From Acidobacteriota bacterium (GTDB lineage: Bacteria; Acidobacteriota; UBA6911): a DNA stretch of 35,268 nucleotides. Where the stretch lies: NCBI GenBank assembly GCA_012719355.1, contig JAAYAM010000130.1:1-35268 (forward strand), read 5' to 3'. Position numbers and translations under genes: made by a program. Under the pieces are notes generated by a model. The model searched no databases and was not told the DNA's origin. It was given only the letters and a program-made list of their open reading frames with translations. Shown here piece after piece: positions 1,154 through 24,256 of the stretch (position 1 is the first letter of the stretch; each line of letters starts with the position of its first letter).

Positions 1154-2689
1154 TCACGCCTTGCGCGCGGCTGCGTTTTCACCCGCAATGCGCCCCATGA
1201 CGAGACAGTCGGCGATGGCGCACGACCCGAGGCGGCTGGCCCCGTGAACGCCGCCGGTAACTTCGCCGGACGCGAACAGACGGGGGATTGGTTCTCCGGT
1301 GGCCATGTGAATCACCTGTGCCTTCGTGTTGATCTGAACGCCGCCCATGCAGTGATGTACCTTGACCCAGGCCCGCCCGGCGTAGAACGGCCCTTTTTCG
1401 AGAGTGATCTTCTTGAAGAAGGTCTTTCCGAATTCCCTGTCTTCACCGGCTTTTACGAAGGCATTATACCGGTCGACCTGCGCAAGCAGTCCCTCGCGGT
1501 TGATGCCGTAGAATTGGGCGAGAGCTTCTATCGTATCGAATTTATGAGCCACACCGTATTTGAGGGCGTTCCCCAATGAAGGAGATTCGCCGGTCCCCTC
1601 CTCCGCCACAAATGCGACAGGATAGACCGGATTTCCCGCTTCATCCTTGTGTTTCAGAATGGCGTCGGAACGCGTTTTCCGGTCGGCCATTTCGTTTACG
1701 AAACGTTTGCCGGTGCGGATGTCGACCATGATTCCGTACGGGAATGCGGCCTGCTGCAGAAACTGCGGCGACATTCCGAAGCCCTTTTCATCGGGGGATG
1801 CCCAGGGACCAAGTTGAATCTGATCAAGCTGGACCGGCGTAGCGCCCGCGCGCAGAAGAGCGGCGAGTCCTTCGGAAGTCGCTCCCGCATGATTGGTGCT
1901 TTGGAGCGAATTGTCCATGCCCGGATCCTGCCTCGTCCTGAAGCGCACGTCGGAAGAAAACCCGCCGCAGGCCATAACGAGACCGCTTCGGGCCCGGATG
2001 CGCCGAAGCCTGCCGCTGTCCTCATCGGGAAAGCGGTGACCCTCGCGGACGACGATGCCGGTTACTGCTCCGGAGGAATCCTGGAGGATCTGCTCGAGTT
2101 TCGTCCTGTTCCTGAAGATCACGCCCATATTGCGCGCGGCCTTGCCCAGCGGCACCGTAATGCCGCCACCGGAATTGTTCGTCGTCTGCAGGGTGCGCGG
2201 GATGGAATGCCCGCCGAACTGCAGCACGACATCCTTGTATTGCACCCCGTACTCGAGCGTGAATTCGTAAGCCCAGCGGGTTCCTTCCGCGATGACGCGA
2301 AGCAGCTCGACATGATTGAGGCCGCGGCCTGCCTTGAGCATGTCCTCCACCATCTGCTCGACCGAATCCTTAATTCCCTGCCGGGCCTGAAGTGGCGAAC
2401 CGGCGACCGCGAACGCGCCGCCGTTGATTGCTGAGTTGCCGCCGAAGACGGCCATCTTCTCGATCACGAGAACAGACGCGCCCCGCTTGCGCGCTTCGAT
2501 GGCGGCCGACGTCCCGGCAAAGCCGCTCCCGACGATCACGACATCATACTCTTCATCCCATCGATCGCCAGGGCCTGCTGCGAAACCCGACAACACCCCG
2601 ATAGAGGCGGCGGCGGATCCTGCCGCCGCTATCAGTAACGATCTGCGTGAGAGCGCCGGCGCGTTGGTGCGGGATCGATCCTTCTTCAT
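1154..2689 (-). CDS. Tat-exported FAD-dependent reductase, fumarate reductase / flavocytochrome c family
   Basis: About 511 residues. The N terminus has a twin-arginine signal (SRRSLLIAAAG). It is followed by the FAD dinucleotide-binding motif VVIVGSGFAGTSAA and the IEKM...GGNSAINGG segment typical of the fumarate reductase flavoprotein family. C-terminal landmarks also fit: GKRFVNE..DR, HHCMGGVQI (substrate-binding His region) and HGASRLG, where the Arg aligns with a substrate-binding Arg of Fcc3. I chose the ATG at 2689 because AGGAGG lies 5 bases upstream; a GTG at 2692 is closer to that site. The cytochrome gene downstream makes this a split flavocytochrome c. Family members reduce fumarate, methacrylate, urocanate or other enoates. 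The sequence does not tell which, so I leave the substrate open. Confidence 0.9.
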   Translation of the reverse strand: MKKDRSRTNAPALSRRSLLIAAAGSAAASIGVLSGFAAGPGDRWDEEYDVVIVGSGFAGTSAAIEARKRGASVLVIEKMAVFGGNSAINGGAFAVAGSPLQARQGIKDSVEQMVEDMLKAGRGLNHVELLRVIAEGTRWAYEFTLEYGVQYKDVVLQFGGHSIPRTLQTTNNSGGGITVPLGKAARNMGVIFRNRTKLEQILQDSSGAVTGIVVREGHRFPDEDSGRLRRIRARSGLVMACGGFSSDVRFRTRQDPGMDNSLQSTNHAGATSEGLAALLRAGATPVQLDQIQLGPWASPDEKGFGMSPQFLQQAAFPYGIMVDIRTGKRFVNEMADRKTRSDAILKHKDEAGNPVYPVAFVAEEGTGESPSLGNALKYGVAHKFDTIEALAQFYGINREGLLAQVDRYNAFVKAGEDREFGKTFFKKITLEKGPFYAGRAWVKVHHCMGGVQINTKAQVIHMATGEPIPRLFASGEVTGGVHGASRLGSCAIADCLVMGRIAGENAAARKA

Positions 2690-2858
2690 CACTTCCTCCT
2701 TCTTTGTGCGGGCAACAGTTTATTCAGTCCGGGACACCGAATGCAACATCAGGCGCTTTCAAACGTTGCGGCGGCTCTGAAAAGATGCTAGAAAAGCCCA
2801 GGCGGTGCCGGTCTGTTCGCGCTTCCGCCGAGATGAATGGGAGCCCTGCATTAGCAAC

Positions 2859-4877
2859 TTGAAACGAAATGCTGCTGTAAAGATCGGACTGGGGATTGAC
2901 GCGGGCGGAACCTACACCGATGCCGTGATCTTTGATCTCGAGAAGAACTTCCTCATCAGCAAGGCAAAGTCTCTCACCACGAGATGGGATTTCACCGCAG
3001 GCATCCGCAGGGCACTCGAGCAGATCGATCAGTCCTTCCTGAAGAAGACAGCGCTTGTCTCGCTGTCGACAACGCTTGCAACCAACGCCATAGTGGAGAA
3101 CGAAGGGCAGAAGGTCGGGCTCATCATTATGCCCCCCTTCGGACTGGATATCGTTCACAACACGTTCCAGGTACCGAAATCTCTCGTGCAGGGACAGCTG
3201 GATATCACCGGCCGCGAGATAGAGCCGGTGAATCCGGAAGAAATCAGATCGGTTGCGCGCCGTATGATTGAAAACCATGGCGTCACCGCATTCGCCGTAT
3301 CCGGATTTGCAGGTTCCATCAATCCGAAACACGAGCTCGAGATCAAGGAGATCCTGAGCGAGGAAACCGGCTTCTTTGTTTCATGCGGCCACGAACTGTC
3401 CGACACTCTCAATTTCCAGACCAGGGCCGTCACCGCAGTGTTGAACGCGAGGATCATCCCCAGGCTTGCCGGCCTGCTGCTGGATCTCGAGAAGGTGATG
3501 AAGGCCTACGGCATAGATTCGCCGGTTGTCGTGGTCAAAGGAGACGGCACCCTGATGAGTTCGGAGATGGCCAAGATGCGCCCTGTCGAAACGATCCTCT
3601 CGGGGCCCGCGGCGAGCGTTGCGGGCGCCAGACATCTGACCGGCATAGACGACGCACTGGTAGTGGACATGGGAGGGACGACCACCGACACGGCCGCGCT
3701 GTCGTCAGGCATGGTCAGACTCAATGACAACGGGTCAAAAGTGGGAAGACACAGGACGCACGTCAAGGCCCTCGATATCAGGACGGCGGGGCTCGGGGGC
3801 GACAGTCTGGTTCTGTATGAGAGGACGCAGTTCTCCATAGGCCCCCGACGGGTGGCACCGGTTGCATGGCTGGGACGGAATCGGCAAGGCACGGAAGCGG
3901 CTTTGGATTACCTGATGCATCACCTCAAACGCTATTCCCTCTCGACAGCGAGGATGCAGATCCTGGTGAAAACAGGCGCCAACAGAGCGATACGGCTCTC
4001 TTCCCTGGAAGAGAGAATCGCCGGACTCCTTGATCAAAGGCCTTATTCGCTGGACGAACTCCTTCATGTCACCCGCACCGCCACAGAAGAGAGCCTGAAC
4101 CTGCAGCGTCTGGAGGAGAACTTCATTATCCAGAGATGCGGCCTCACCCTTACTGACCTCCTGCATGTCAACGGCGTCTTTGAAGAATGGGATGCGGACA
4201 CGGCTCGCCGATATGCGGAGTTCTATGCGTTTCTGTCCCGTATGCCGTTGCGCGAAATGACTGATCATATCCTTGATCTGGGGGTCAAGCGGCTCTCGAT
4301 GGAATTACTGAAACGCCGCCTGGATGACGACACCGATGCAGACGCGATCGACGACTCTCCCGTCGCCAGGACTCTGGTTCACCGTTTCCTGAATGAACAG
4401 CATCCCGAGTACGAAGTGGAGATAAGGTTCAAGCACCCGGTAATCGGGATAGGGGCGCCGATCGGCTACTTTCTGCCGCGCGCCGTCGTTCCTTTCAAAG
4501 CGAAAGCTATCCTTCCGCCGAATGCCGACGTGGCGAACGCCATCGGCGCGATCACGAGCCATGTTTTCATCCGGAGACAGCTCCGGATAGCGCCCGACGG
4601 AGCGGGCGGTTTTGTGGTGGAAGGGGTTTCAGGAGCGCGCAAATTCGCAAGTATCGAGGAGGCGGACCGTTTTGCCAGGGCGGAATTGAAGGAGATGATT
4701 CACCAGAAGGCAATTGAGGCGGGAACGAGTTCGAGAACCATAAGGTTTGAAACGAGTGACAGCATACCGCTGGCCGCCACTGGGGAGGCGGTCTTTCTGA
4801 AAAGGACGATTTCGGCAAGTCTGAAGGGACATCCGGATCTGGTTGTCAGTTTGCCCGGAAGAATCGGTAAAGGCTAA
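2859..4877 (+). CDS. Hydantoinase/oxoprolinase-family (HyuA-like) ASKHA ATPase
   Basis: About 672 residues from a TTG at 2859. GLGIDAGGTYTD (about residues 10-21) is the first phosphate-binding loop of the hydantoinase/oxoprolinase family. SGPAAS (about 249) and DMGGTTTDTA (about 270) mark the second ATPase lobe. The C-terminal half carries GIGAPIGYFLP and PPNADVANAIGA. The start is uncertain: an in-frame GTG lies at 2805, but TTG 2859 puts the nucleotide loop at the usual distance and has GGGAG 15 bases upstream. No partner B subunit is present, as true N-methylhydantoinase or acetone carboxylase would need. Proteins of this type occur next to corrinoid methyltransferases. I infer an ATP-dependent accessory role in the methyl-transfer island, not hydantoin hydrolysis. 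The function is not proven. Confidence 0.8.
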   Translation: MKRNAAVKIGLGIDAGGTYTDAVIFDLEKNFLISKAKSLTTRWDFTAGIRRALEQIDQSFLKKTALVSLSTTLATNAIVENEGQKVGLIIMPPFGLDIVHNTFQVPKSLVQGQLDITGREIEPVNPEEIRSVARRMIENHGVTAFAVSGFAGSINPKHELEIKEILSEETGFFVSCGHELSDTLNFQTRAVTAVLNARIIPRLAGLLLDLEKVMKAYGIDSPVVVVKGDGTLMSSEMAKMRPVETILSGPAASVAGARHLTGIDDALVVDMGGTTTDTAALSSGMVRLNDNGSKVGRHRTHVKALDIRTAGLGGDSLVLYERTQFSIGPRRVAPVAWLGRNRQGTEAALDYLMHHLKRYSLSTARMQILVKTGANRAIRLSSLEERIAGLLDQRPYSLDELLHVTRTATEESLNLQRLEENFIIQRCGLTLTDLLHVNGVFEEWDADTARRYAEFYAFLSRMPLREMTDHILDLGVKRLSMELLKRRLDDDTDADAIDDSPVARTLVHRFLNEQHPEYEVEIRFKHPVIGIGAPIGYFLPRAVVPFKAKAILPPNADVANAIGAITSHVFIRRQLRIAPDGAGGFVVEGVSGARKFASIEEADRFARAELKEMIHQKAIEAGTSSRTIRFETSDSIPLAATGEAVFLKRTISASLKGHPDLVVSLPGRIGKG

Positions 4878-4885
4878 GTTTAGCT

Positions 4886-4914
4886 TTCAAAAGCCGGACG
4901 CGGCCTATTATAAT
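4886..4914 (+). promoter_or_regulatory. Predicted sigma70-type promoter for URO-D paralogue A
   Basis: TTCAAA (4886-4891) and a perfect TATAAT (4909-4914) are separated by 17 bases, just after the HyuA-like stop codon. Initiation near 4921 would give a leader of about 185 bases before the ATG at 5107. I found no cobalamin B12-box or other known riboswitch signature in that leader. Confidence 0.5.
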
Positions 4915-5106
4915 GCGGGCGTTCGTCCGCGTGGAGGCAGCCAGGTTGCACGGAGTCTCATCGGGTTTTCTTCGGGTGATATCCGGCTCACTGGGAGATC
5001 GGGCCGCGGAAGCAGTTATCATTCATCTGATTCCTGAGAAAGAACCGGATGCTGGGAACGACGAATTCCTAACAAAGGGCAAGAATTAAACTGGGAGGTT
5101 CTGCTG

Positions 5107-6108
5107 ATGAATTTAAAACAAACATTCATGTCCGCATTGCGCAATGAGAAGCCGATAAAGTGGATGGGATACGGATTCGAGGCATTTCCGAAGATCAAGT
5201 TCCACTGCGTTATGGATCCTATCTCGGTCTGGGACATTCTCCAGTTCACGGGTGAGGCGGCCATAGACAACTGGGGAGGCACCATTCGTTTCCTTCCCGG
5301 CGATCCCGGCTGGATACCGATCGTCAATGACGAGAACAAGGTCATCAAGGATATTACGAAATGGCGGGACTATGTGAAATTCCCCGAGATTCCGGACCTT
5401 GACTGGAGCGAGGCGAAAAAGACCATAGAAGGAATCGACAGAGAAACGACTATGGTCATGGTTCCGAGTTTCCGCGGCCTGTTCGAGCGCGCCCATTGCC
5501 TCATGCCTTTCGAGGAAGTGCTCATCAGCCTGTATGAGGAGCCCGAAGCAATGTATGAGTTCTTCGGCGCCTATGCCGAATGGAAGCTCAAGGTCTTCGA
5601 GCTGCTCATCGACAATCTGAAACCGGACATCCTGCACAGTCACGACGACTGGGGTTCCAAGACCGCTCTCTTCTTCTCTCCGCAGAAGTTCCGCGAGCTG
5701 CTGAAGCCTCATTACGCGCGGCTCTATGACTACGTCAAGAAACGCGGCGTCCTGATACAGCATCATTCCGACTGCTATATCCAGGGAATTGAAACCGACA
5801 TGGTCGATCTGGGAATCGACATGTGGCAGGGAGCCCTTCCTTCCAACGATCTGCTCGAGATAAAGAAGAACACGCAGGGAAAGATGCTCCTCATGGGAGG
5901 TATCGACCAGGGCATCATCGACAGGGCGGAGGCGACGGAGGAGGAGATCCGCGCTGAAGTCCGCAGGGCGATCGACACCTATGCTCCCGGCGGGGCATTT
6001 CTGCCGTGTGTCGGCAGCCTCGAGTGCATCAATGAGTGGGTGACTCCGATCGTCATTGACGAATGCAACCGGTACGGGGCGGAATGGCTGAAGAAGCAGC
6101 AGCAGTAG
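5107..6108 (+). CDS. URO-D-family corrinoid methyltransferase, paralogue A
   Basis: A 333-residue protein of the uroporphyrinogen decarboxylase superfamily, which includes the methyltransferases MtaA, MtbA and CmuA. The ATG has GGGAGG 8 bases upstream. Key landmarks are HDDWGS (179-184), HHSDC (219-223) and FLPCVGS (C301). C223 and C301 sit where MtaA-type enzymes keep two zinc-binding cysteines, so this paralogue could bind the Zn that activates the methyl acceptor or donor. A true heme-pathway decarboxylase is unlikely: no other haem genes are near, and a RACo, a corrinoid protein and a methyl-H4folate enzyme surround it. The role is inferred as methyl transfer between a substrate and the corrinoid protein; the substrate is unknown. 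It is closely similar in layout to paralogues B and C on the opposite strand. Confidence 0.87.
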   Translation: MNLKQTFMSALRNEKPIKWMGYGFEAFPKIKFHCVMDPISVWDILQFTGEAAIDNWGGTIRFLPGDPGWIPIVNDENKVIKDITKWRDYVKFPEIPDLDWSEAKKTIEGIDRETTMVMVPSFRGLFERAHCLMPFEEVLISLYEEPEAMYEFFGAYAEWKLKVFELLIDNLKPDILHSHDDWGSKTALFFSPQKFRELLKPHYARLYDYVKKRGVLIQHHSDCYIQGIETDMVDLGIDMWQGALPSNDLLEIKKNTQGKMLLMGGIDQGIIDRAEATEEEIRAEVRRAIDTYAPGGAFLPCVGSLECINEWVTPIVIDECNRYGAEWLKKQQQ

Positions 6109-6136
6109 CGCTAGCAGCCGCTCGCCGACAGTGAAC

Positions 6137-6179
6137 AAACAGAAAACCTCCCGTGCCTGATGCGGGAGGTTTTCTGTTT
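6137..6179. terminator. Strong bidirectional hairpin terminator after paralogue A
   Basis: A perfect 17-bp stem (6137-6153 pairs with 6163-6179) with a 9-base loop. The stem combines a GC-rich inner part (CCTCCCG/CGGGAGG) with an A-rich arm and a T-rich arm (TTTTCTGTTT), so it reads as an intrinsic terminator on either strand. It begins 28 bases after the stop codon of paralogue A and ends 25 bases before the TTG start of the RACo gene. It also locks away GGGAGG, the only strong Shine-Dalgarno-like sequence near the RACo start. Confidence 0.85.
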
Positions 6180-6204
6180 GAAGAATAAACCATAAGCATG
6201 AGCA

Positions 6205-8025
6205 TTGACATCATTGCACCACATTGAATTCGAACCTGTGGGAAGACGCGGCAGCTGTCCTGAAGGGATTTCGCTCCTGGATTGCGCGCGTCTGTTGAAA
6301 GTGGACATTGTCAGCATCTGCGGCGGCCTCGGCTCATGCCGCAGATGCCGTGTCCAGGTCGTATCGGGAGCGGTATCGGCGCCGACGGCCGTCGACCGCG
6401 AAACCTTCGCGGACGCGGAACTGAAACAGGGCTGGCGTCTTGCCTGCACGGCGTTTCCACAGGGCGATGTCAGGGTGCTGGTGCCGCCTGAGTCTCTCTC
6501 GACGCCCCAGCGCATGCAGGTGGAAGGCCTTGATCAGCAGATCGCCCCGGATCCGGCGGTTCGTATCTTCGATGTGCAATTGACTCCTCCCTCACTGGAA
6601 GACCCGAAGGCGGACGATTCAAACCTGTGGTCCGCGCTCGAACGCGATCACGGCGTGGCTTCGGGAATCATCGATCTTGCAGTGCTGCAGGTTCTGTCTT
6701 CCAGGCTCCGGGCTCTGAACTGGAGAGCGGATGTTGTCCTGCGCGAATCGGAGATCATAGCCCTGGATGCGCCCCAGACACGGTGGATCGGCCTTGCAGT
6801 GGATATCGGCACGACCAAGATCGCCGTGTACCTGGTGGACATGAAGAGCGGAGAGATAGCGGCATCGTCGGCTCTGATGAATCCCCAGATCTCTTATGGC
6901 GAGGACGTGGTGTCGCGGATCCATATCGCGGGCGAATCTGCGGAGAACGCCGCAAAGCTTCAGGCGCTCCTCGTCGATGCTCTCAACGGCACCATTGCCT
7001 CGATGTGCGATGGAATCGGCTCCGACCCGTCACATATTGTGGATGCGGTCATTGTCGCCAACACCGCCATCCATCATCTGTTCCTGCAGGCTCCGGTGCA
7101 GCAGCTGGGGCTGGTTCCGTATGTGCCGGCCGTTCGTTCGGCGCTGGACATCAAGGCCCGCGATCTCGGTTTGAAGACGGCTCCGGGAGGCTGTGTGCAT
7201 CTGCTGCCGAACGTGGCCGGCTATGTCGGTGCAGATCATGTGGCGATGCTGCTCGCAACCCGGATAGCTGAGCGGGACGGGATAACGCTGGCAATCGATA
7301 TCGGCACCAATACGGAAATCTGCCTGAATCGCCATGGCAGGATGAAAAGCGTCTCGTGCGCTTCCGGTCCGGCCTTCGAAGGAGCTCATATCGAGTTCGG
7401 AATGCGCGCCGCCCAGGGGGCGATCGAGCATGTGCGGCTGTCGGGTGATCGACTGGAAATCCAGACTATCGGCGGAGTGGCGCCGGTCGGGATCTGCGGC
7501 TCGGGCCTTCTCGACGGAATCGCTCAGATGCTTAACAGCGGAGTGATCGATGCTTCGGGCCGGATGCAGGACCATCCGCTCGTGCGGAAACGCAATGGCA
7601 GAAGGGAATTCGTTCTCGCCCAGCGTCCGGGCGAAAGCGACATTACCATATCGCAGAAGGATGTGCGGGAATTGCAGGCGGCGAAAGCGGCGATAAGGCT
7701 GGGAATACAGGCTCTGATCGATGATGCCGGCATTACAGAAAATGATATCGACCGGGTAATCATTGCCGGAGCATTCGGCACCTTCATCGATGTGCAGAGC
7801 GCTATCGAGATCGGGATGCTCCCCGCCTTGCCGCTGGAGCGCTTTCAGCAGGTGGGTAATGCGGCGGGTACCGGGGCGCGGATGGCTTTGATTTCGAAGG
7901 AAATGCGCCGGGCGGCGCTGGAGATTGCGGAGCGCGACGGATATGTCGAGCTTGCGTGCATTCCCGATTTCAACGAAAGATTCGCCGCCGCCAGTAACCT
8001 CGGCGCCGAGCTCCAGCCTGTGTAG
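6205..8025 (+). CDS. RACo-type reductive activator of corrinoid protein (2Fe-2S plus ASKHA)
   Basis: A 606-residue protein. The N-terminal ferredoxin domain has the plant-type 2Fe-2S ligands C39, C45, C48 (C-x5-C-x2-C) and C81. The C-terminal ASKHA domain begins with LAVDIGTTKIAVYLVD near residue 197, followed by MNPQISYGEDVVSRI, a second LAIDIGTNTEI loop, CASGPAFEG and GICGSGLLDG. This layout is that of the activators of corrinoid/iron-sulfur and O-demethylase corrinoid proteins, which use ATP and electrons to return inactive Co(II) to Co(I). An in-frame stop at 6199 limits the start to TTG 6205 or TTG 6214, and neither has a clear ribosome binding site. It lies downstream of a strong hairpin, so its expression signals are unclear. 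The target is most likely the corrinoid protein encoded at 12557-13189. Confidence 0.92.
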   Translation: MTSLHHIEFEPVGRRGSCPEGISLLDCARLLKVDIVSICGGLGSCRRCRVQVVSGAVSAPTAVDRETFADAELKQGWRLACTAFPQGDVRVLVPPESLSTPQRMQVEGLDQQIAPDPAVRIFDVQLTPPSLEDPKADDSNLWSALERDHGVASGIIDLAVLQVLSSRLRALNWRADVVLRESEIIALDAPQTRWIGLAVDIGTTKIAVYLVDMKSGEIAASSALMNPQISYGEDVVSRIHIAGESAENAAKLQALLVDALNGTIASMCDGIGSDPSHIVDAVIVANTAIHHLFLQAPVQQLGLVPYVPAVRSALDIKARDLGLKTAPGGCVHLLPNVAGYVGADHVAMLLATRIAERDGITLAIDIGTNTEICLNRHGRMKSVSCASGPAFEGAHIEFGMRAAQGAIEHVRLSGDRLEIQTIGGVAPVGICGSGLLDGIAQMLNSGVIDASGRMQDHPLVRKRNGRREFVLAQRPGESDITISQKDVRELQAAKAAIRLGIQALIDDAGITENDIDRVIIAGAFGTFIDVQSAIEIGMLPALPLERFQQVGNAAGTGARMALISKEMRRAALEIAERDGYVELACIPDFNERFAAASNLGAELQPV

Positions 8026-8363
8026 CGCATAGCGCATCAATGTTCGTATTGAGGCCCGTGATCGTTGTTCCTACATGCCGGAAATATTCGGTGCAACAAT
8101 CCCCACCCTGAAAAACGTTCCGTATTGGTGTCACGCCCATCTGATTACGGACACGGTGTATCGGAAATGTTCCGATGCATCAATCCACCGTCCGATAGGG
8201 TTTTTGTTACCGCACCGTGAATAATGTTCCGTATTGATGTTACGAAACATTTGTATCATGCATCCGTCCCGATAGGGACGGGTTGAGAATAGCCCGGCAC
8301 GGAAGTGCCGGGAATCAACAGGAACAAAGAAGAAAATCAAGTCCCGGAGGGACGACCGACCAT
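8026..8363. other. Convergent gap filled with repeats
   Basis: This 338-base stretch lies between the 3' ends of RACo and URO-D paralogue D. It has no credible gene. It holds two copies of an A(C/T)GTTCCGTATT(G/A)(G/A)TGT(T/C)ACG motif (from about 8115 and 8224), GTCCGATAGG/GTCCCGATAGGGAC segments and repeat copy 2. A short minus-strand frame at 8131-8340 consists of repeat sequence. Confidence 0.7.
8224..8362 (+). repeat. Dispersed palindromic repeat, copy 2 (extended)
   Basis: This copy begins with an ATGTTCCG...TTACG...AACATTTGT segment, continues with GTCCC-GATA-GGGAC (8265-8279) and GGTTGAGAATA, and ends with the core CCCGGCAC/GTGCCGGG stem-loop, A-rich spacer and GTCCC-GGA-GGGAC. The same order of parts recurs at 26593-26805. 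It sits between two convergent genes. Confidence 0.8.
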
Positions 8364-9434
8364 TTACGAATTCACCAAATCGGAAATCTGTTTCAGCCGG
8401 CTGAATTCCGCATCGACCGGGACGTGATCCGCAACCCCTATGATCGTCCGGCCGTCAATCTCCGCGAACGCTTTCGCTTCCTCGACCGACTTGATCAGAA
8501 CCGACAGGTCGTGCATCGGCATGACATAGTCCTGCGGAATCCCTCCCCATAACGTAATATCCGGCCCCGTCGCTTCTCGTGCCGCGGAAAGCTCCGCATC
8601 ACTTTGTGGCGGTCCCGATATTCCACTCAGGATATCAATCCCGCAGCCGGCCAGAAGCGGCAGCAGATGCCTGGAAATCCCCCCGATGTGCACCATCAGA
8701 TACCTGCCGCGCTGATGCAGCTGTTGGCAGACACTTCTGTAGCTTGCTTCCAGGTGGTTCTCAAACACAGCCGGCGAGATGAATTGTCCGTCCAGGTTAT
8801 CGGGCGCGACAAAGATGGAGTGAGGTAAATCCCCGGCGAGTTTCTGAATCAGCTCATTCCTTTTCTCTTCCATCACAGCCAGCATTTCCGTCAACCGCTC
8901 TTCCTCCGGACCCATCATAAGCATCAGCCCTTCGGTCCACCCGAGCAGCGAATGAAGCATGTTCGAGTACGGTGTCCTGGGAATCTGAACAGCATCCACG
9001 ATGCCGGAATCCGCATCGGCCTCAGCCGGCAAGGAAGCCTTCAGCCGGTACCGCATGGCTTTGACGATTTCCTCGGCCGCATCCAGATCATCCTCATCTT
9101 TGACCGGGTATTCCTTCTGCCACCAGTCCCGATCCGGCCCGAGCTCCCACAATTCCGAGAGGACTCCGCGCCTGGTGTGATACCTGATTACGCGTCTGGC
9201 TTCGCTTTCCTCGCGGGTAACTTCGATGCCGTCATATTCAAGCCGCCACGGCGTGTGAACCATCCACGCCGGACAATTCAGGGAGAAGGCGATGTCGGAC
9301 AGCGAGCTCTCGCTGTCCGGCAATGTACCCAGCCGCCTGTGCCATTCGAACCACTGACCCAGATCAGGCATGAACAGGGGCCGTCGCGAGCCACGGCCCT
9401 TGAACTGCTCCACCAGGGTTTCCTTGAAGTTCAT
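8364..9434 (-). CDS. Divergent URO-D-family protein, paralogue D
   Basis: A 356-residue member of the uroporphyrinogen decarboxylase superfamily and the most divergent of the four in this island. Where MtaA-type enzymes have H-x-C, this one has H249-I-G251, and no cysteine follows at the second ligand position (IIGVADHVP, 331-339). It also lacks the HDDWG motif of paralogues A-C, carrying APDNLDG instead. It therefore probably does not hold the standard catalytic zinc. Its ATG overlaps the acetyltransferase stop codon as ATGA, with GGAGG just upstream, so the two are translationally coupled. It could be a substrate-specific methyltransferase with another metal site, a non-catalytic partner, or an enzyme with different chemistry. 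Confidence 0.8.
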   Translation of the reverse strand: MNFKETLVEQFKGRGSRRPLFMPDLGQWFEWHRRLGTLPDSESSLSDIAFSLNCPAWMVHTPWRLEYDGIEVTREESEARRVIRYHTRRGVLSELWELGPDRDWWQKEYPVKDEDDLDAAEEIVKAMRYRLKASLPAEADADSGIVDAVQIPRTPYSNMLHSLLGWTEGLMLMMGPEEERLTEMLAVMEEKRNELIQKLAGDLPHSIFVAPDNLDGQFISPAVFENHLEASYRSVCQQLHQRGRYLMVHIGGISRHLLPLLAGCGIDILSGISGPPQSDAELSAAREATGPDITLWGGIPQDYVMPMHDLSVLIKSVEEAKAFAEIDGRTIIGVADHVPVDAEFSRLKQISDLVNS

Positions 9435-10225
9435 TTCCCGCCTCCATTCAGGATCAAATCCAGATCAAGGTTGAACTGTTCCTTCAGGATTGTAGTGAAT
9501 TGACGATCGTCTTCAATGGGGGTTTCCTGCAAACGATCCAGTTCCACCACCTTGAAGTGGCTATCCGTGAGCGTGATCCTTCCCTCTGCGGTGGGCATCG
9601 TACACATTCTCAGCTTCATGAAGAACGAATCCGGAAAAGTGGCGGTGAAGTGGTTGGACATGAGAAAGTCATCGGGGCCGCATTCAGCGAGTTCGAATCC
9701 GTACAGGGGGCTGTATTCGCCGCCCATCTTCTTTTCAAGCACATAGCCGAGTTTCGGATGCGAAACGATGCGGTAGGTATGTGCAAACTGCCGCTGCTCG
9801 GTGTTCTCCTCAAAGAGCAAAGGAGCAATGATGCCGTTGTTGCCGAACCCGACATCGGCAAGCCACCGTTTCCCACCGGTTTCCACCAGTATGACCTGAT
9901 GAGTCCTGGTCGTGTACTTCGAGCCGTCAAGCGCGACCCTTGCCAGGAGATTGGTGACTTTGAATCCCATCTCCTGCAGGACGAAGGAAAAGATGCCGTT
10001 CATTTCAAAACAGTATCCTCCTCGCCTGTCCCTGACGATCTTGCGGTAGAGCGATTCGTGATCCAGCAGAATCGGCCTCCGGTAAAACACGTCGAGATTT
10101 TCGAAGGGGATGTTGAGGGTGTGAGCGATGTGGATACTCCTCAGAGTATCTTCATTGGGGGTTGTCCCGTCTTTATAGTTGATCCTCTCAAAATAGGACT
10201 CCAGGCTGAAACTGTCATTCTTCAC
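9431..10225 (-). CDS. Arylamine N-acetyltransferase (NAT) family protein
   Basis: A 264-residue cytoplasmic enzyme with the full NAT catalytic triad: Cys72 in RRGGYCFE, His109 in TRTHQ and Asp124 in ADVGFG. The family moves an acetyl or other acyl group from CoA to aromatic amines, hydroxylamines or hydrazines through an acyl-cysteine intermediate. I chose the GTG at 10225 because AGGAG lies 6-7 bases upstream; a longer reading from GTG 10264 lacks this. It is placed inside the minus-strand methyltransferase operon between paralogues B and D and overlaps D by four bases. That position is unusual and suggests that it acts on the substrate or product of the methyl-transfer pathway, for instance an aromatic amine. 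This link is inference from context only. Confidence 0.92.
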   Translation of the reverse strand: MKNDSFSLESYFERINYKDGTTPNEDTLRSIHIAHTLNIPFENLDVFYRRPILLDHESLYRKIVRDRRGGYCFEMNGIFSFVLQEMGFKVTNLLARVALDGSKYTTRTHQVILVETGGKRWLADVGFGNNGIIAPLLFEENTEQRQFAHTYRIVSHPKLGYVLEKKMGGEYSPLYGFELAECGPDDFLMSNHFTATFPDSFFMKLRMCTMPTAEGRITLTDSHFKVVELDRLQETPIEDDRQFTTILKEQFNLDLDLILNGGGK

Positions 10226-10349
10226 TGAAAGCTCCTTTATGCTTTTTCCCGGGGCTTCCGACACCGGTCGTCGTGCGGGCGTGAGACCTTCGATATATCA
10301 GCATTTTCCGGACATGCGGAAGGACAGATGGATGGACGGATGGAATGGA

Positions 10350-10375
10350 GAGGAGGGCCGGCACGGCCCTTCCTC
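10350..10375. other. Intra-operon hairpin between paralogue B and NAT
   Basis: GAGGAGGGCCG (10350-10360) pairs with CGGCCCTTCCTC (10364-10375) around a GCA loop, with a single-base bulge. It lies in the 174-base gap between the stop codon of paralogue B and the NAT start. No T-run follows on the minus strand, so an mRNA-stability or processing element fits better than a terminator. Confidence 0.5.
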
Positions 10376-10399
10376 CCAGTGTTGCCGGTGAATTCGGTT

Positions 10400-11413
10400 T
10401 CAGGCCCTGATTCCGTGAACATCCTCATTGTAACGGGCGATCTCGTCGGTGATCAGCGGATCGACGTCTGGATGGATGCTCCCCGGAAGGCCGTAGGTCA
10501 AGCTGGGGATGAAGCCTCCGCCCGGCCCGTACTCCTGGCAGGCGCGGCGAACCTCGGCCCGGATAGTCTCTTCAGACGCTCCCGGCCAGTCGACGATGGC
10601 GGCGTCGATGCCGCCCATGAGTACCATGCGGCCGCCGAGCTGCTTCTGAATTCTAGGAATGTCGTTCTGGGGCACCACCCCCTGCCAGATGTCTATACCA
10701 AGCTCCACCATGTCTTCGGCTAATGGTTCGAGATAGCAGTCCGCGTGGTGCATGATCAGGACACCGTTGTCCCGGGCGTAGTTGTACATCTTGAAGTAGT
10801 AAGGTTTTATCAGCTCCCGCCATGTGTCGGGCTTCATGAACAGCGAGCGTTTGCTTCCCCAGTCATCGTGGGACAGGATGACGTCGGGTTTCAGATTATC
10901 TACGAGCAGCTTGAGGTAGTTGAAGCGGAATTCGCTGATGGCGGCAATGAGCTCCTTCATTGATTCCGGCTCGAGGAGAAGATTCGACAGCGTGTCTTCA
11001 AAACCCATCAGGTAGTGGCATTGTTCAAAAATGCCGGTCCCCATAAAGGCCATGACCATCTTCTCGTCCCGATTCACTTTGCCCGCCTCCTCAAGCGCGG
11101 GTTTCCAGAGCTCAGGATCTGAGCACGCTCCGACGATGTCGGGAACCTTCACGTACTTCTGCCACATGGTGACGTCGGGGACTACCTTGTTTTCAGGCGT
11201 TACATGAGGCATGGCGGCGAACTGCTCTTCCGGCCAGGCAATTTCGGTTCCCCAACGGTCTTTTGTAGTCTTTCCTTTTTCGCGGTTGCCGCGTGTGAAA
11301 TTGAGGCAGGGATCGGTGAGTACTGGAACGAAGGGCTGGTATTGATTGACGAGTCTGTCGGGCCTGCCGCCGGGTTTCAACAACTCCAGCAGATTCTGTT
11401 TCGGTGTAAGCAT
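10400..11413 (-). CDS. URO-D-family corrinoid methyltransferase, paralogue B
   Basis: A 337-residue protein, similar in layout to paralogues A and C, beginning MLTPKQNLLELL. It keeps HDDWGS (182-187) and HHADC (222-226), so the first candidate zinc-ligand cysteine (C226) is present. At the second position, where A has FLPC and C has FIPC, it has FIPS, with Ser304 in place of cysteine. It could use another ligand or act with a partner. It lies 98 bases after paralogue C in the same minus-strand series that starts with the methyl-H4folate enzyme. The function is inferred as methyl transfer to or from the corrinoid protein. Decarboxylation of uroporphyrinogen is not supported by context. Confidence 0.86.
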   Translation of the reverse strand: MLTPKQNLLELLKPGGRPDRLVNQYQPFVPVLTDPCLNFTRGNREKGKTTKDRWGTEIAWPEEQFAAMPHVTPENKVVPDVTMWQKYVKVPDIVGACSDPELWKPALEEAGKVNRDEKMVMAFMGTGIFEQCHYLMGFEDTLSNLLLEPESMKELIAAISEFRFNYLKLLVDNLKPDVILSHDDWGSKRSLFMKPDTWRELIKPYYFKMYNYARDNGVLIMHHADCYLEPLAEDMVELGIDIWQGVVPQNDIPRIQKQLGGRMVLMGGIDAAIVDWPGASEETIRAEVRRACQEYGPGGGFIPSLTYGLPGSIHPDVDPLITDEIARYNEDVHGIRA

Positions 11414-11434
11414 TCAGACTTTCCTTATCAATCC

Positions 11435-11467
11435 GCGCCTGCCGGCCTTTGGGCGACCGGCAGGCGC
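11435..11467. other. Intra-operon hairpin between paralogues C and B
   Basis: A perfect 11-bp inverted repeat, GCGCCTGCCGG (11435-11445) with CCGGCAGGCGC (11457-11467), around an 11-base loop. On the minus strand it is followed by GGATTGATAAGG and the start of paralogue B, with no T-run. It may tune the relative mRNA level or translation of B versus C. Confidence 0.6.
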
Positions 11468-11511
11468 AGACCGATACCGCTCAGCGCCGATTGACGACGT
11501 TCATTTCGGTT

Positions 11512-12531
11512 CTACTTGAACATTTCCTTGCTCATCTTATCGATTTCCACGGAAATGGCGTCATAGACACCGTCGTATACGGCACCCTTTCCTCCCTGGG
11601 TGATGCAGGGGATAAAGTAAAGCTTGCCGTTTTCCTCACAGGCCCTGCGCACGTGCTTGGCGACCAGTTCCTGGGTCCAGTCTTCACGGTCGACAAGACC
11701 GTTATCGATATCGCCCATGAAGGAGATCTTGCCGCCGTACTTTTTAATCAATTCGGAAACGTTATTCGTTGAGACGCATCCCTGCCAGATGTCGATTCCC
11801 ATCTCGATCATGGCGGGAACGAGATTGGCGCTGTACGCGTCGTTGTGATGGGCTATGATCTGAACTCCTCTTTGCCTGTAGTAGCCGTACCATTTCTTAT
11901 ACGGCTCCAGTAGGAATTCCTCGAACATGTCCGGCGACAGGAATGACGACTTGTGGCTGCCCCAGTCGTCATGCTGGAAGATCACCTCGGGAGCAAAATT
12001 GTCGCACACGAGCTTCGCATACTTGAGCTTCCATTCCGTGATAAAGTTGATGAGCTCCTTCATCGCTTCAGGTTCTTCATAGAAAGCGATCAGGCAGTCA
12101 TCCATTCCCATCAGGTAGTGGACCTGCTCAAAGATGCCGGGGGCTCCGAAGACGGTGACGAACAATTCGTTCCGGTCGATCCCTTCCAGCTGAGCCGCCT
12201 TGCACTTGTCCCATTCCGACTGCGGGTAATCAAGGGTCGGCGCTTTGACCACTTTCTCCCATTGGGTGATGTCCTTGATTACCTTGTGCTCCTGATCATG
12301 CACGGGGAAAGCTCCCGGCACATTGGCGGGCCAGGCTTTCGTAACGCCCCATGAGTCTTTCACCGGCGGACCGCCGATGACCGGCCTTGCCGAAGCGTCC
12401 ATGACCGGGTCTGAGAAGATCATACCGAAGGGCGCACTCGGAGAGCAGTCGAACGCCTCGTACTGGTTCACAAACCTGTCCGGCTTACCACCTCGGATGG
12501 TCTCCAGCAAATTCTGTTTTTTTGTCAACAT
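11512..12531 (-). CDS. URO-D-family corrinoid methyltransferase, paralogue C
   Basis: A 339-residue protein that begins MLTKKQNLLETIRGGKPDR, very like paralogue B. HDDWGS is kept (187-192). The first candidate zinc-ligand position is lost: the motif reads HHNDA (228-232) instead of HH-x-D-C. The second is kept as FIPC (C309). This is the mirror image of the change in paralogue B. The gene starts 25 bases after the corrinoid protein stop codon, so the two are almost certainly cotranscribed, and the corrinoid protein is its likely partner. The substrate is unknown. Confidence 0.86.
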   Translation of the reverse strand: MLTKKQNLLETIRGGKPDRFVNQYEAFDCSPSAPFGMIFSDPVMDASARPVIGGPPVKDSWGVTKAWPANVPGAFPVHDQEHKVIKDITQWEKVVKAPTLDYPQSEWDKCKAAQLEGIDRNELFVTVFGAPGIFEQVHYLMGMDDCLIAFYEEPEAMKELINFITEWKLKYAKLVCDNFAPEVIFQHDDWGSHKSSFLSPDMFEEFLLEPYKKWYGYYRQRGVQIIAHHNDAYSANLVPAMIEMGIDIWQGCVSTNNVSELIKKYGGKISFMGDIDNGLVDREDWTQELVAKHVRRACEENGKLYFIPCITQGGKGAVYDGVYDAISVEIDKMSKEMFK

Positions 12532-12556
12532 GAAAGAAGTGCCTCGTCTAAGTGCG

Positions 12557-13189
12557 CTACGCTGCTACAATCGCCTTTGCCTTCTCCGCGGCAGCTCCCG
12601 CGTCAGGTGCGTACGCGTCAGCTCCGATTTCGTCCGCAAATTTCTGTGTCACAGGCGCTCCGCCGACTATGATCTTGAACCCTGACAATCCGCTTTCCCT
12701 GATCGCATCCACGGTCTTCTTCAATGCGGGCAGAGTGGTCGTCAGCAGCGCTGAACACGCGACCAGCTTGACGTTCTGATTATTCTTGATGGCTGCAATG
12801 AATTTATCGGGCGCCTGGTCGACTCCAAGATCCACCATGTCGAACCCGGCACTGCCGATCATCATGCTGACGAGATTCTTTCCGATGTCATGAAGGTCGC
12901 CTTCAACCGTGCCGATCACGCACGTACCCAGAGACGTCGAGGCATCTGCGGCGAGATGAGGCTTCAGTACTTCAACTCCCTTTGCCATTGCTTTCGCCGC
13001 AATGAGCATTTCAGGCACGAAGATCTCTCCGGCCGAGAATCTGTCGCCGACCACCTTCATACCGTCGATCATCGCCTGAAGGATATCCTTCGCAACACTT
13101 CCTTCATCCAGGGCTTCCTGAACCAGACCCGGGACTATTTTGGTTTTGCCGATAATAACCTGTTCTTTTACTTCATCGATTTTGGCCAT
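12557..13189 (-). CDS. Corrinoid (cobalamin-binding) methyl-carrier protein
   Basis: A 210-residue protein with the two-domain layout of MtaC/MtmC/MtvC-type carriers. The N-terminal helical cap domain spans about residues 1-85. The C-terminal Rossmann-like B12 domain carries D98-L-H100-D-I-G103, where His100 is the lower axial cobalt ligand, then SALLTT (147-152) and VGG (175-177). It shuttles a methyl group as methyl-Co(III) between the URO-D-type enzymes and the methyl-H4folate enzyme. It is the only corrinoid protein in the window, so all four URO-D paralogues probably share it or use others encoded elsewhere. It lies between the AcsE-like gene and paralogue C. Its Co(II) state would be the substrate of the RACo protein. 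Confidence 0.95.
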   Translation of the reverse strand: MAKIDEVKEQVIIGKTKIVPGLVQEALDEGSVAKDILQAMIDGMKVVGDRFSAGEIFVPEMLIAAKAMAKGVEVLKPHLAADASTSLGTCVIGTVEGDLHDIGKNLVSMMIGSAGFDMVDLGVDQAPDKFIAAIKNNQNVKLVACSALLTTTLPALKKTVDAIRESGLSGFKIIVGGAPVTQKFADEIGADAYAPDAGAAAEKAKAIVAA

Positions 13190-13312
13190 ATTTTTCCCAC
13201 TCGTTACCGTAGTGCCCGAACCTTTCGGCCGGGGAAATATTCTTGTTACGCACGACAGATTCTGCTCGTGCCCACCATAACACGGCCGCCAAACAGCCTT
13301 CTATAAAAGTTC

Positions 13313-14119
13313 TTATTGTTTCTGCGTACCGAACAGGCCTGCCCTGAAGGCATGAATGAATTCGATACACATCTCGTCCCTGCCGAGTAATGCCTCGGTT
13401 GCGTATATCAAGCCTCTCAAATCCCTGTTCAGAGGATCAAGGATTACGCTGTCCAGCCCCGCATTCATGGCGAGAACGACAAATGCCTGGTTTATGATCT
13501 TTCTCGCCGGCAGGTTGAACGAAACATTGCTGGCCGCACCCGTCACATGGATGTCGGGATACTGCTTCTTGATCTCCTGCATTACTTTGATGATTACATT
13601 GATGCCGTCTTCAGAAGTGGCCAGCATTTCCACAAGAGGATCTATATGCAGCCTGGAAGGAGCGATGTTGTATTCCTTGGCCTTCTTCATCAACGCTTCG
13701 AATACCTCGAGGCGTTTCTCGGCCGTTCGCGGAATTCCCGAATCGTCGCACAGAAGCGCGATGCAATCCCATTTCGTATCCGCGATCTTGGGGAAAACGA
13801 TTTCGATCTTGTTTCCTTCCATCGATACGGAATTCACGATGCCGGGTCTTTTGCAGAAATCTATGGCTTTCGCGCACACTTCGGCGCTGGGACTGTCAAC
13901 CGCCAGCGGGGTATCGGTAACTTCCTGAACAAGATCAATCAACCATTTCAGTGTCTCCAGTTCCCTGGAAACCTCGACAGAAGCGCATACGTCGATGAAA
14001 TCAGCTCCCGCTTCGCTTTGAACTTTCGCAAGATTCCTGATGTAGTCAGCGTCTTTCGCTTCAATGGCCTTGCCTGTTGACGGAATGGACCCGTTAATTT
14101 TTTCAGCGATGATAATCAT
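13313..14119 (-). CDS. Methyltetrahydrofolate:corrinoid methyltransferase (AcsE/MtvA-like)
   Basis: A 268-residue TIM-barrel protein of the pterin-binding family. Residues that match the folate site of AcsE (MeTr) are in register: D75 in LAVDSPS, N96 in IVNSVS, D160 in LHIDPLV and N198 in ASNVSFN. DVCAS (43-47) replaces the usual DxNxG-type loop. It would move the methyl group between methyl-Co(III) and tetrahydrofolate, feeding methyl-H4folate into one-carbon metabolism or the Wood-Ljungdahl pathway. It is first in the minus-strand operon, with GGAG upstream of the ATG and a good promoter at 14219-14248. No acsB, acsC or acsD is nearby, so a role as the second methyltransferase of a demethylase system is more likely than in acetyl-CoA synthase itself. 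Confidence 0.92.
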   Translation of the reverse strand: MIIIAEKINGSIPSTGKAIEAKDADYIRNLAKVQSEAGADFIDVCASVEVSRELETLKWLIDLVQEVTDTPLAVDSPSAEVCAKAIDFCKRPGIVNSVSMEGNKIEIVFPKIADTKWDCIALLCDDSGIPRTAEKRLEVFEALMKKAKEYNIAPSRLHIDPLVEMLATSEDGINVIIKVMQEIKKQYPDIHVTGAASNVSFNLPARKIINQAFVVLAMNAGLDSVILDPLNRDLRGLIYATEALLGRDEMCIEFIHAFRAGLFGTQKQ

Positions 14120-14304: not shown

Positions 14305-15426
14305 TCAGAACCGGCAGTTCATCCGGATGCCGAACAGCACCGAGTGCGGACCGCCGCCGCCGGGGCGCAACACCCACTGAAGGTCCGGCTGAATCGCTAT
14401 CTTCGACGCGGCCTGCCATTTGTAAAAGACTTCCACGGCGGTTTCCCGGCTTGAATCCCCGGTCGCGGCAGAGGTCACCCCGACTCCGATCACATCTTCG
14501 GGACGCTTCCGGACGGCTCCCCGGTACGAAATTCCTCCACCGACATAATCACTGATTCCGTTGGGGTCTTCCGGGGCCAGTCCCCAATGGAGGAACAGGC
14601 CCGGACCGCCGGGTTCTTCTTCCGAAGGCTTGCGAAACCAATAGTCGGCAGTGCCGTAGACACCGTAATCATTCGCCTGCCGCCAGAAGCCGAATCTGAA
14701 TATCGCCGACTGCAGGAATCTGTCGGGCACCGGTTCAATTTTCACTTCCGACAGGGTGTACGGTCCCGTCTCGCTTCCGCGGAAGACTCCCGCTCCGAAC
14801 GACATCCAGGGGAGCATGTCGACCCAGGCACTCGCGCCCAAGACCGGCCGCGGATAGGTGGGCATGGGATTATTCGGCATCAATCCATAGGACGCATTGA
14901 TGAATTCAGAACCGTTTTCAATTACGCCGAACTCCGAATCCGCGTACTGCCTTCCGAGACGCGTTCTCAGCCTCCCATGAAAATACTCATCGGAGTACCA
15001 CGCCTCCGTCACCCTGGTGAAGCCCGCATCGTCAAGACTGCTGAGACTCTGAAGCGCGCCGACCCAGGATTCGTTCACTCCGCGGCCATGCAGACTCTGC
15101 GCTCCAAGAAAGAACTGTCCCCGGCCGACGCCGGCTTTGGACAGATCGAGAGAGAGCGCGGCATCAACGCTTCCGAGGTATTCCCCGCCCCTCCGGGACC
15201 TCAGTCCGCCCCTGAGCTTTCCGAAATACTCCGCAGTATATCCGGCTTCGTATTCAACGCCGCGCTCCGCCAGTCTCCGGCGCAGACTGCGTTCCTCCAG
15301 CCTGCTCTTCAAAGGCTCAGGAGCCGGCGCTGAATAGATTTCCTCTGCCGGCAGGACTGTGCACAGCGGCAGCAAGACCCCGGCCAGGACTATCAACTGT
15401 CGCTTAAGAACATGAGCTGAGCACAT
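14305..15426 (-). CDS. OprB-family outer-membrane porin
   Basis: A 373-residue outer-membrane beta-barrel of the carbohydrate-porin OprB type. The N terminus from ATG 15426 has a signal peptide (QLIVLAGVLLPLCTVLPA, cut near AEE). Repeated aromatic and glycine-rich strands follow. The segment from FFLGAQ through TEAWY, RLRTRLGRQYADSEFG and FINASYG to a final F at the C terminus is typical of the family, and GRQ...FINASYG is its best landmark. I chose 15426 because it puts the signal peptide at the N terminus with AGGA upstream; a longer reading from 15543 runs into the preceding small gene. It starts 11 bases after the FeoB-associated peptide gene and may be cotranscribed with feoAB. The solute is unknown, and a metal or organic acid is as likely as sugar. 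Confidence 0.82.
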   Translation of the reverse strand: MCSAHVLKRQLIVLAGVLLPLCTVLPAEEIYSAPAPEPLKSRLEERSLRRRLAERGVEYEAGYTAEYFGKLRGGLRSRRGGEYLGSVDAALSLDLSKAGVGRGQFFLGAQSLHGRGVNESWVGALQSLSSLDDAGFTRVTEAWYSDEYFHGRLRTRLGRQYADSEFGVIENGSEFINASYGLMPNNPMPTYPRPVLGASAWVDMLPWMSFGAGVFRGSETGPYTLSEVKIEPVPDRFLQSAIFRFGFWRQANDYGVYGTADYWFRKPSEEEPGGPGLFLHWGLAPEDPNGISDYVGGGISYRGAVRKRPEDVIGVGVTSAATGDSSRETAVEVFYKWQAASKIAIQPDLQWVLRPGGGGPHSVLFGIRMNCRF

Positions 15427-15437
15427 TCGGCAGGATC

Positions 15438-15644
15438 CTATCGCAGGGCGGTTTCGTTTCGGGTTGTTCCCGATGGTTCTCGAGAAGCCTTTCTCCCGAT
15501 CCGGCAATGGTCGTGCACTCCGCAGGCGCTCTTGGCCGTGCATGCGCAGGCCGGCGTGTCTCCATGCATGGTGCGATAGACGGAACGGCCCGCAAGCGTC
15601 AGTACAAGACCGATGATCAGCGCGACGAAAATGTATTCAAGCAT
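15438..15644 (-). CDS. FeoB-associated Cys-rich membrane peptide
   Basis: A 68-residue peptide with one N-terminal membrane span (residues 4-18) followed by a cysteine cluster at C33, C35, C41 and C47. This matches the small FeoB-associated Cys-rich proteins often encoded just after feoB. It starts 17 bases after the FeoB stop codon, with AGGA as ribosome binding site. The C-terminal 20 residues past the cysteine cluster are not typical. It is thought to support ferrous iron uptake, perhaps as an iron-handling partner, but the family is little characterised. Confidence 0.75.
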   Translation of the reverse strand: MLEYIFVALIIGLVLTLAGRSVYRTMHGDTPACACTAKSACGVHDHCRIGRKASREPSGTTRNETALR

Positions 15645-17734: not shown

Positions 17735-17767
17735 ATTAACTCCTGTTCTTAAGAGCGCGCACTACCG

Positions 17768-17808
17768 TTGCCCCACATAAAGTTCGTTGCTCCGAACTCA
17801 TGGGGCAA
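17768..17808. other. Hairpin in the feoA-feoB gap
   Basis: TTGCCCCA (17768-17775) pairs with TGGGGCAA (17801-17808), and the inner AGTTCG (17781-17786) pairs with CGAACT (17793-17798). The two stems are separated by an uneven internal loop. Eight A residues adjoin it on the plus strand, so on the minus strand the T-run precedes the hairpin. It is therefore not a terminator for the feo transcript. A processing or stability role is possible. It also contains a 21-codon minus-strand frame from ATG 17802, which has no ribosome binding site. Confidence 0.55.
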
Positions 17809-17814
17809 AAAAAA

Positions 17815-18039
17815 TCAGCTGACCCAGAGGCAGCGGGCCATCTCCTGCCCTAACGCCAGGCGGCCGTCTCCGACTGACACGATAAACGAGCCGGAGAGGT
17901 TCCGGCGGATGACCATGAGTTCAGTTCCGGGAATAAGTCCCAGAGATGCCAGGCGGGCCCGCAAGTCCCGGTTTCCGCCGATCCGGTTCAGACAGAATTT
18001 CTCCCCTTCCCTGGCCGTATTCAGAGGCCTGCTGTTCAT
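17815..18039 (-). CDS. feoA: FeoA domain protein
   Basis: A 74-residue SH3-like FeoA protein. The signature region is LRARLASLGLIPGTELMVI, a common FeoA core, followed by SFIVSVGDGRLALGQEMA. It is a cytosolic regulator or partner of FeoB in Fe(II) import. Its ATG overlaps the stop codon of the DtxR-family regulator gene as ATGA, so the two are translationally coupled. Confidence 0.93.
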   Translation of the reverse strand: MNSRPLNTAREGEKFCLNRIGGNRDLRARLASLGLIPGTELMVIRRNLSGSFIVSVGDGRLALGQEMARCLWVS

Positions 18040-23783: not shown

Positions 23784-23794
23784 GATGTGCCTCG

Positions 23795-24256
23795 TCATCT
23801 GGCGGCAACGCTCTCAATAGCCTTCACGATACGCTGGTGAGCGCTGCAGCGGCATAGATTATCTTCCATGCCCGCGATGATCTGCTCGCGGGTGGCCTTA
23901 GGATTCCTGAGAAGCAAGGCGTAGGCGTTCATGATCATGCCCGGTGTGCAGAAGCCGCACTGCACAGCGCCGTGCTCGGCAAAGGCTTTCTGCAGCGGGT
24001 GAAGCTGATCTCCCTTTGCCAGCCCTTCTATGGTGGTGACTTCCTTGCCGCGTACCTCGCGCACCGGCAGCATGCACGAGCGCACCGCTTCCCGGTCGAT
24101 CACCACCGTGCAGGCTCCGCACAGATATCTGCCGCAGCCGTATTTCGTTCCGGTCAGGCCCAGGTCCGTGCGAAGAACCCACAGAAGCTTCCTGTCGCCG
24201 TCCACGGTAATGGTTGTGGATTTGCCGTTAAGCTTGAAAGTAATCGTTTCTGTCAT
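23795..24256 (-). CDS. Molybdenum hydroxylase 2Fe-2S subunit (IorA-like)
   Basis: A 153-residue subunit with two [2Fe-2S] clusters. The plant-type cluster motif is CGRYLCGACTVV with a later Cys (RSC). The second cluster is CGFCTPGM and CRCSAH. It carries electrons from the molybdenum site of the large subunit to an external acceptor. I chose the ATG at 24256 (MTETITFKLNG) because family members begin there; an in-frame start at 24325 adds a tail unlike the family. It is first in the operon, and its stop codon lies within the start region of the large subunit. No signal peptide is present, so export would be by hitchhiking on the Tat signal of the large subunit. Confidence 0.93.
   Translation of the reverse strand: MTETITFKLNGKSTTITVDGDRKLLWVLRTDLGLTGTKYGCGRYLCGACTVVIDREAVRSCMLPVREVRGKEVTTIEGLAKGDQLHPLQKAFAEHGAVQCGFCTPGMIMNAYALLLRNPKATREQIIAGMEDNLCRCSAHQRIVKAIESVAAR

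Follow-up and report, generated by a model that had tools for sequence, protein, structure and literature searches.

The DNA analysed here (the window) is a stretch of 35,268 nucleotides, contig C44 of an Acidobacteriota draft metagenome-assembled genome (MAG) of 4.57 Mb in 377 contigs, referred to as G000. Between positions 2859 and 14119 it carries a set of corrinoid methyl-transfer genes, and sequence comparison leads us to conclude that this is probably an anaerobic corrinoid O-demethylase island, which strips methyl groups from plant-derived methoxylated aromatics. An initial annotation of the same DNA had described a corrinoid methyl-transfer system that feeds tetrahydrofolate (H4folate) through several diverged methyltransferases I (MT I), a description supported by the protein families, motifs and synteny found here.

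The island consists of two convergent units that meet between positions 8025 and 8364. The plus-strand unit comprises, in order, a HyuA-like ASKHA ATPase, the URO-D gene A and a RACo-type reductive activator of corrinoid proteins; the minus-strand unit comprises a methyl-H4folate:corrinoid protein methyltransferase (MTII), the corrinoid protein (CP), the URO-D genes D and C, an arylamine N-acetyltransferase and the URO-D gene B. All eight genes listed by the initial annotation are in place, in two convergent units and with the expected families, while the N-acetyltransferase inside the minus-strand unit had been overlooked. Its stop codon and the start of B share 4 bases. Promoter-like sites are at about chance level (8 versus 5.0 ± 2.2).

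The island is conserved in the congener genomes G001, G003, G005 and G006 (G004 and G007 were also compared), and since the same genes recur in these four congeners, their clustering is not due to chance. The congeners share an arrangement in which D-CP-MTII (minus strand) is followed by HyuA-A-RACo (plus), by B, accompanied or not by the N-acetyltransferase (minus), and lastly by D′ (plus), another D-like gene. In G003 the genes are spread over two contigs, and G001 has no N-acetyltransferase. Relative to this arrangement, the window has the D-CP-MTII block on the other side and an additional gene, C, and its D′ lies on contig C82. The initial annotation had named two findings that would speak against its pathway, namely a grouping of the URO-D proteins with true HemE and a synteny conserved in no relative; the first is contradicted by family cut-offs and tree, the second by the four congeners. 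Across the phylum, an A-like match at 1e-30 is present in only 7 of 297 genomes, so that the trait appears patchy, which fits its gain by transfer.

Methyltransferase I candidates and their partners

A (5107-6108, plus strand), C (10400-11413, minus strand) and D (11512-12531, minus strand) encode probable MT I proteins, that of D being of the O-demethylase type. PF01208 matches A with 43.5 bits and C with 65.7 bits. The motifs FE..H, HDDWG and HH.D belong to the columns conserved in more than 90% of 78 homologues, and each of A (where the last reads HHSDC), C and D carries all three. These motifs, together with clades common to homologues from Acetobacterium, Alkalibaculum and Blautia, mark the three as probable acetogen-type MT I proteins of the UroD superfamily. 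The D homologues are 60-69% identical in Acetobacterium, Alkalibaculum, other Bacillota and Deltaproteobacteria, many of them adjoining CP and MTII genes, and MTII-CP-D neighbourhoods are found in many Bacillota, including Desulfosporosinus. Relatives of A, C and D in Acetobacterium, Alkalibaculum, Blautia and MAGs of Deltaproteobacteria or Spirochaetes often adjoin CP and MTII genes, and the C orthologue of G004 adjoins an MTII.

A role of the URO-D genes in porphyrin metabolism is ruled out by family cut-offs and tree. With the HemE model TIGR01464, A-D score at most 19.4 bits versus a cut-off of 302.95, and the true HemE of this genome, encoded on contig C40 (408.7 Pfam bits), stands apart from A, C and D in the tree. 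The link to MtaA, MtbA and CmuA drawn by the initial annotation also has to be abandoned, as membership is ruled out by the family cut-offs: A-D reach at most 41.5 versus 235.4 bits with TIGR01463 and at most 28.2 versus 400 bits with NF040654. Two zinc motifs were likewise discarded as defining features. The first, E-X14-E-X20-H, which we take to be that of Acetobacterium dehalogenans MT I, is absent from A, B, C and D and present in several A. dehalogenans paralogues, though not in the D-clade protein of that organism (L048; L-numbers designate individual loci or contigs). The second, D-X27-C-X39-C, is absent from A-D, and neither is universal among the homologues. Zinc itself is not universal in MT I, the M. 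thermoacetica enzyme being devoid of it (PMC13222342).

A, C and D share 37-44% pairwise identity. In a tree of 96 proteins, built by a quick method with SH-aLRT support and with long branches flagged, D clusters with its orthologues from Acidobacteriota and, in a wider group, also with proteins of Acetobacterium and Alkalibaculum; C branches with proteins of Blautia parvula, of a Spirochaetes MAG and of congener G004 (support 97); and A shares its clade with proteins of G048, of G004 and of a Deltaproteobacteria MAG (support 100). Because these are three separate clades, A, C and D are best read as old separate lineages brought together and not as local or recent duplicates. One D gene that is 82% identical to that of the window, and lies inside the congeners' D clade, comes from a Spirochaetes MAG contig (L028:10001-11011); this reflects either a recent transfer or a binning error.

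The three partner proteins are those expected of such a system. The CP (12557-13189, minus strand) matches PF02607 and PF02310 and has a helical domain and the DxHxxG signature, here DLHDIG. MTII (13313-14119, minus strand) scores 337 bits with NF005719 (cut-off 259), which places it among the methyl-H4folate-type enzymes, and its best solved relatives are 4o0q, 4o1e and 4o1f (3.5e-92 over residues 1-267, its full length). The structure listing names these 'dihydropteroate synthase'; we take them to be the MTII of a Desulfitobacterium O-demethylase. The activator (6205-8025, plus strand) has the full set of RACo domains (PF14574, PF17651 and PF17650) together with Fer2, a 2Fe-2S domain, and its best solved relative is 3zyy (1.3e-107). 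The best solved relative of the CP is 1y80 (4.5e-49), a protein from Moorella (PMC3727330).

B (8364-9434, minus strand) is different. It is about 24% identical to each of A, C and D, has none of the three motifs that A, C and D carry, and sits on a separate long branch. The initial annotation counted four URO-D-superfamily genes; by sequence B is marginal (PF01208 21.9 bits, under the Pfam cut-off of 23.9), but its predicted structure does have the URO-D fold (pLDDT 77), with the M. mazei methyltransferase 4ay8/4ay7 and UROD structures as best matches (TM about 0.6). The further claim that all four URO-D proteins are methyltransferases is not supported as it stands, B being devoid of every conserved MT I motif, and an MT I role of B is unproven. 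Its orthologues are kept in the islands of G001, G003, G005 and G006. Elsewhere, in A. dehalogenans and others, ordinary MT I genes come together with URO-D genes from a clade apart (L158, L161, L166), and several of the latter lack one or more conserved motifs; such 'accessory URO-D' genes may be a general feature.

Probable methyl donors and likely sharing of the corrinoid protein

Aromatic O-methyl ethers are most probably the methyl donors, because relatives of D occur in demethylating acetogens, because of the solved relative of MTII and because of the feruloyl esterases of the congeners. The O-, N- or S-methyl compound of the initial annotation can be narrowed accordingly, at this same strength. 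A feruloyl esterase gene adjoins D in G003, G005 and G006, is about 90% identical among the three and matches NF041944 in its feruloyl-esterase part, with 483 bits in L105 and 490 bits in L108. A tannase-family gene is also found near the island in G003 and G005. Feruloyl esterase and tannase-type enzymes release ferulate and similar methoxylated acids.

We think it rather unlikely that the main donors are instead haloalkanes, methylamines or methyl thioethers. The best-scoring NCBIfam model for the CP is the glycine-betaine-specific MtgC, which would favour a non-aromatic donor, though the score is far under its cut-off. Against it, glycine betaine is served by MT I proteins of the MttB superfamily, of which the island has none; the homologues and gene order of D match acetogen-type MT I systems, and it is feruloyl esterase genes that flank the congeners' islands. 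HyuA-like genes have been reported in glycine betaine methyltransferase clusters (PMC9768040), again in favour of other donors.

Some observations weigh against an island for aromatic demethylation built around one CP. In G000 itself the feruloyl esterase is not beside the island, a 72% relative being located on contig C80. CdmB, an MT I of the same superfamily region that is related to the O-demethylases, uses chloromethane and not methoxylated aromatics (PMC13222342). The assignment to MT I draws on homologues in Acetobacterium and other organisms and on the literature, not on direct alignment to MtvB, OdmB, VdmB or MtoB. The assembly, too, is a draft, broken into 377 contigs. Finally, the A orthologue of G004 directly follows MTII and CP genes of the type found on contig C114 (the CP 36% identical to the island CP, the MTII 40%), so that A may use a C114-type CP instead of that of the island.

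The last point bears on the statement of the initial annotation that four URO-D paralogues share one corrinoid protein. G000 has three CP matches. Besides the island CP, contig C114 encodes a 36% relative, and the third match falls within a 1252-aa frame of contig C6 that is taken as MetH. G003, G005 and G006 have two each, and A. dehalogenans has 37. No close CP other than that of the island is encoded in the genome, which has the URO-D genes A, C, D and D′; with just one close CP available, its sharing by A, C, D and D′ is the simplest reading and a likely one, even with the differently paired A orthologue of G004. A possible, less probable reading is that the island CP serves D only (perhaps also C), that A works with the C114 CP and that B is no methyltransferase. 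The G004 pairing, the similar CP/MTII pair on C114 of G000 and the absence of all MT I motifs from B would agree with this division. However, the C114 CP already has a 447-aa URO-D partner of its own in G000, A and D remain together with RACo in the congeners' island, and C, D and CP are consecutive on one strand in the window. That second MTII-CP-URO-D set (L271:8820-11642) has its URO-D gene in the place that the A orthologue takes in G004.

Proposed mechanism and accessory genes

Based on the above, we propose a cycle of O-demethylation with a shared CP. RACo, with ATP, would reduce the CP to Co(I). D and C, and probably A, would each demethylate its own class of methoxylated aromatics and load the methyl group onto Co(I), after which MTII would hand it from CH3-Co(III) to H4folate. 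Several MT I proteins of separate ancestry, mostly sharing one CP and one MTII, would thus give a wider substrate range. Formyl-H4folate synthetase (FTHFS) and MetF are present in the genome. No match to acetyl-CoA synthase (CdhC/AcsB, PF03598) was found in G000, G005 or G006, versus matches in G007 and two controls; the bacterium is thus probably not an acetogen, and a reading as full acetogenesis was set aside. With no acetyl-CoA synthase match, methyl-H4folate would probably be oxidised via MetF and FTHFS to formate or CO2, or used in biosynthesis. An engineered strain of A. woodii is able to live on the conversion of methyl groups to formate (PMC10284823), and the growth of D. hafniense on vanillate requires an electron acceptor (PMC3306737).

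Gene identities, motifs, clades, synteny, the number of CPs and the lack of a CdhC/AcsB match come from the sequence itself; the class of substrate, the sharing of the CP, the direction in which the methyl group flows and what becomes of it are inferred. Corrinoid methyl transfers are reversible in principle and MetF can supply methyl-H4folate, so that the same enzymes might methylate an aromatic or other acceptor. We regard this reversal as very improbable, since the closest relatives come from organisms known for demethylation and the islands of the congeners are flanked by esterases that set methoxycinnamates free.

We count B, the HyuA-like ATPase and the N-acetyltransferase as accessory. 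The HyuA-like gene (2859-4877, plus strand; alternative start of the reading frame at 2805) matches PF05378 and PF01968 in residues 11-331 only, and its predicted structure (mean pLDDT 45.1) is unusable for fold search. Full-length orthologues with 67-76% identity are found in the congeners' islands, where they stay with A and RACo, and no HyuB partner is found among the annotated neighbours. The protein perhaps has a role in maintenance of the corrinoid system. Its context in G007 was discarded as support for this role, the gene there being a 48% relative with no recognisable corrinoid gene nearby.

The arylamine N-acetyltransferase (9431-10264, minus strand; PF00797, 3.9e-68) has 1e2t as its best solved relative (8.6e-45), and the alignment shows an intact Cys-His-Asp triad. 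A 54% identical relative adjoins MTII-D-CP in an unrelated Bacillota contig (L052), and further relatives lie about 6 kb from a cluster of MTII-D-CP type in L053 and L057. This recurrence hints at a functional link between the N-acetyltransferase and the corrinoid cluster. A more elaborate scheme, which we consider unlikely, is that this non-acetogenic genus of Acidobacteriota has a system of one CP hub and many methyltransferases; the HyuA-like protein would then be a second dedicated factor for hub maintenance, and B and the N-acetyltransferase would perform an extra step on amino- or acyl-substituted methoxyaromatics.

Several genes on the flanks and at related loci deserve mention. A flavocytochrome-c-type reductase (1154-2692, minus strand; TIGR01813, 486.8 bits) with a twin-arginine-like signal is divergent from the HyuA-like gene; its closest solved relative is urocanate reductase 6t85, and it could act as an electron sink for an enoate. 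We do not retain it as part of the pathway because it does not adjoin the island in congeners. Directly beyond MTII is an OprB-type porin gene (14305-15543, minus strand) with no relative in the other loci compared; farther on, FeoB adjoins an iron-dependent repressor fused to a FeoA domain (15662-18809, minus strand), and a molybdenum hydroxylase large subunit (21630-23798, minus strand) combines a twin-arginine-like signal with profile matches whose domain order is rearranged. In congeners, a molybdenum hydroxylase subunit is located a few kb beyond D′ (L106:3368-5722). In a Deltaproteobacteria MAG a 58% relative immediately adjoins a D-type gene (L034:9253-11622), and the G000 orthologue, on contig C52, is followed by an OYE-like reductase frame. 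This proximity is suggestive; in an expanded family, with nine matches in G000, adjacency is nevertheless weak evidence, and we do not include the enzyme in the pathway.

Relation to known systems

The island resembles the three-component O-demethylases of acetogens and Desulfitobacterium (MtvABC, OdmABD, VdmAB, Dhaf_0720-0722) in its UroD-superfamily MT I, small DxHxxG CP, AcsE-like MTII that delivers to H4folate and RACo-type 2Fe-2S activator. It differs from them in that several MT I proteins of separate clades surround one CP and MTII, that the activator is inside the cluster, that a HyuA-like protein, an N-acetyltransferase and B are added, and that no acetyl-CoA synthase was found in the genome. 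The A. dehalogenans activator, by comparison, is presumably single-copy and encoded outside the O-demethylase clusters. The A. dehalogenans clusters L158, L159 and L160 likewise combine one CP with two or three URO-D genes, but most of the extra ones fall in a clade that contains none of A, B and C, and no HyuA-like or N-acetyltransferase gene was detected there. Methermicoccus shengliensis, also a non-acetogen, has two MT I proteins, MtoB1 and MtoB2, described with one CP, MtoC, and one activator with an N-terminal 2Fe-2S site in its Mto system (MtoA, MtoB1, MtoB2, MtoC, MtoD); there, however, the acceptor is tetrahydromethanopterin via the MtrH-like MtoA, whereas the island has an MTII of the H4folate type (PMC8630106). 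In the HydA-containing glycine betaine clusters of Sporomusa and Ca. Formimonas, a hydantoinase-like gene is similarly found beside CP, MTII and RACE, but the MT I is of another kind than the URO-D proteins of the island (PMC9768040).

Given the A. dehalogenans clusters L158-L160 and MtoB1/MtoB2/MtoC of Methermicoccus, an arrangement of several MT I proteins around one CP is not new, and the chemistry is known from acetogens. Acidobacteriota have already been reported to express methoxy-demethylation genes in peat (PMC10805028); the island provides a gene-level candidate for methoxydotrophy in uncultured members of the phylum. With few CPs in the genome versus dozens in Acetobacterium, it offers a clean case for the sharing of one CP by several MT I proteins and for the division of specificity among them. 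The HyuA-like and N-acetyltransferase genes are specific points that can be tested. If our proposal is correct, demethylation would proceed in an organism with no detected acetyl-CoA synthase and would release the methyl carbon as formate or CO2, a point of relevance to the flow of carbon from lignin under anaerobic conditions.

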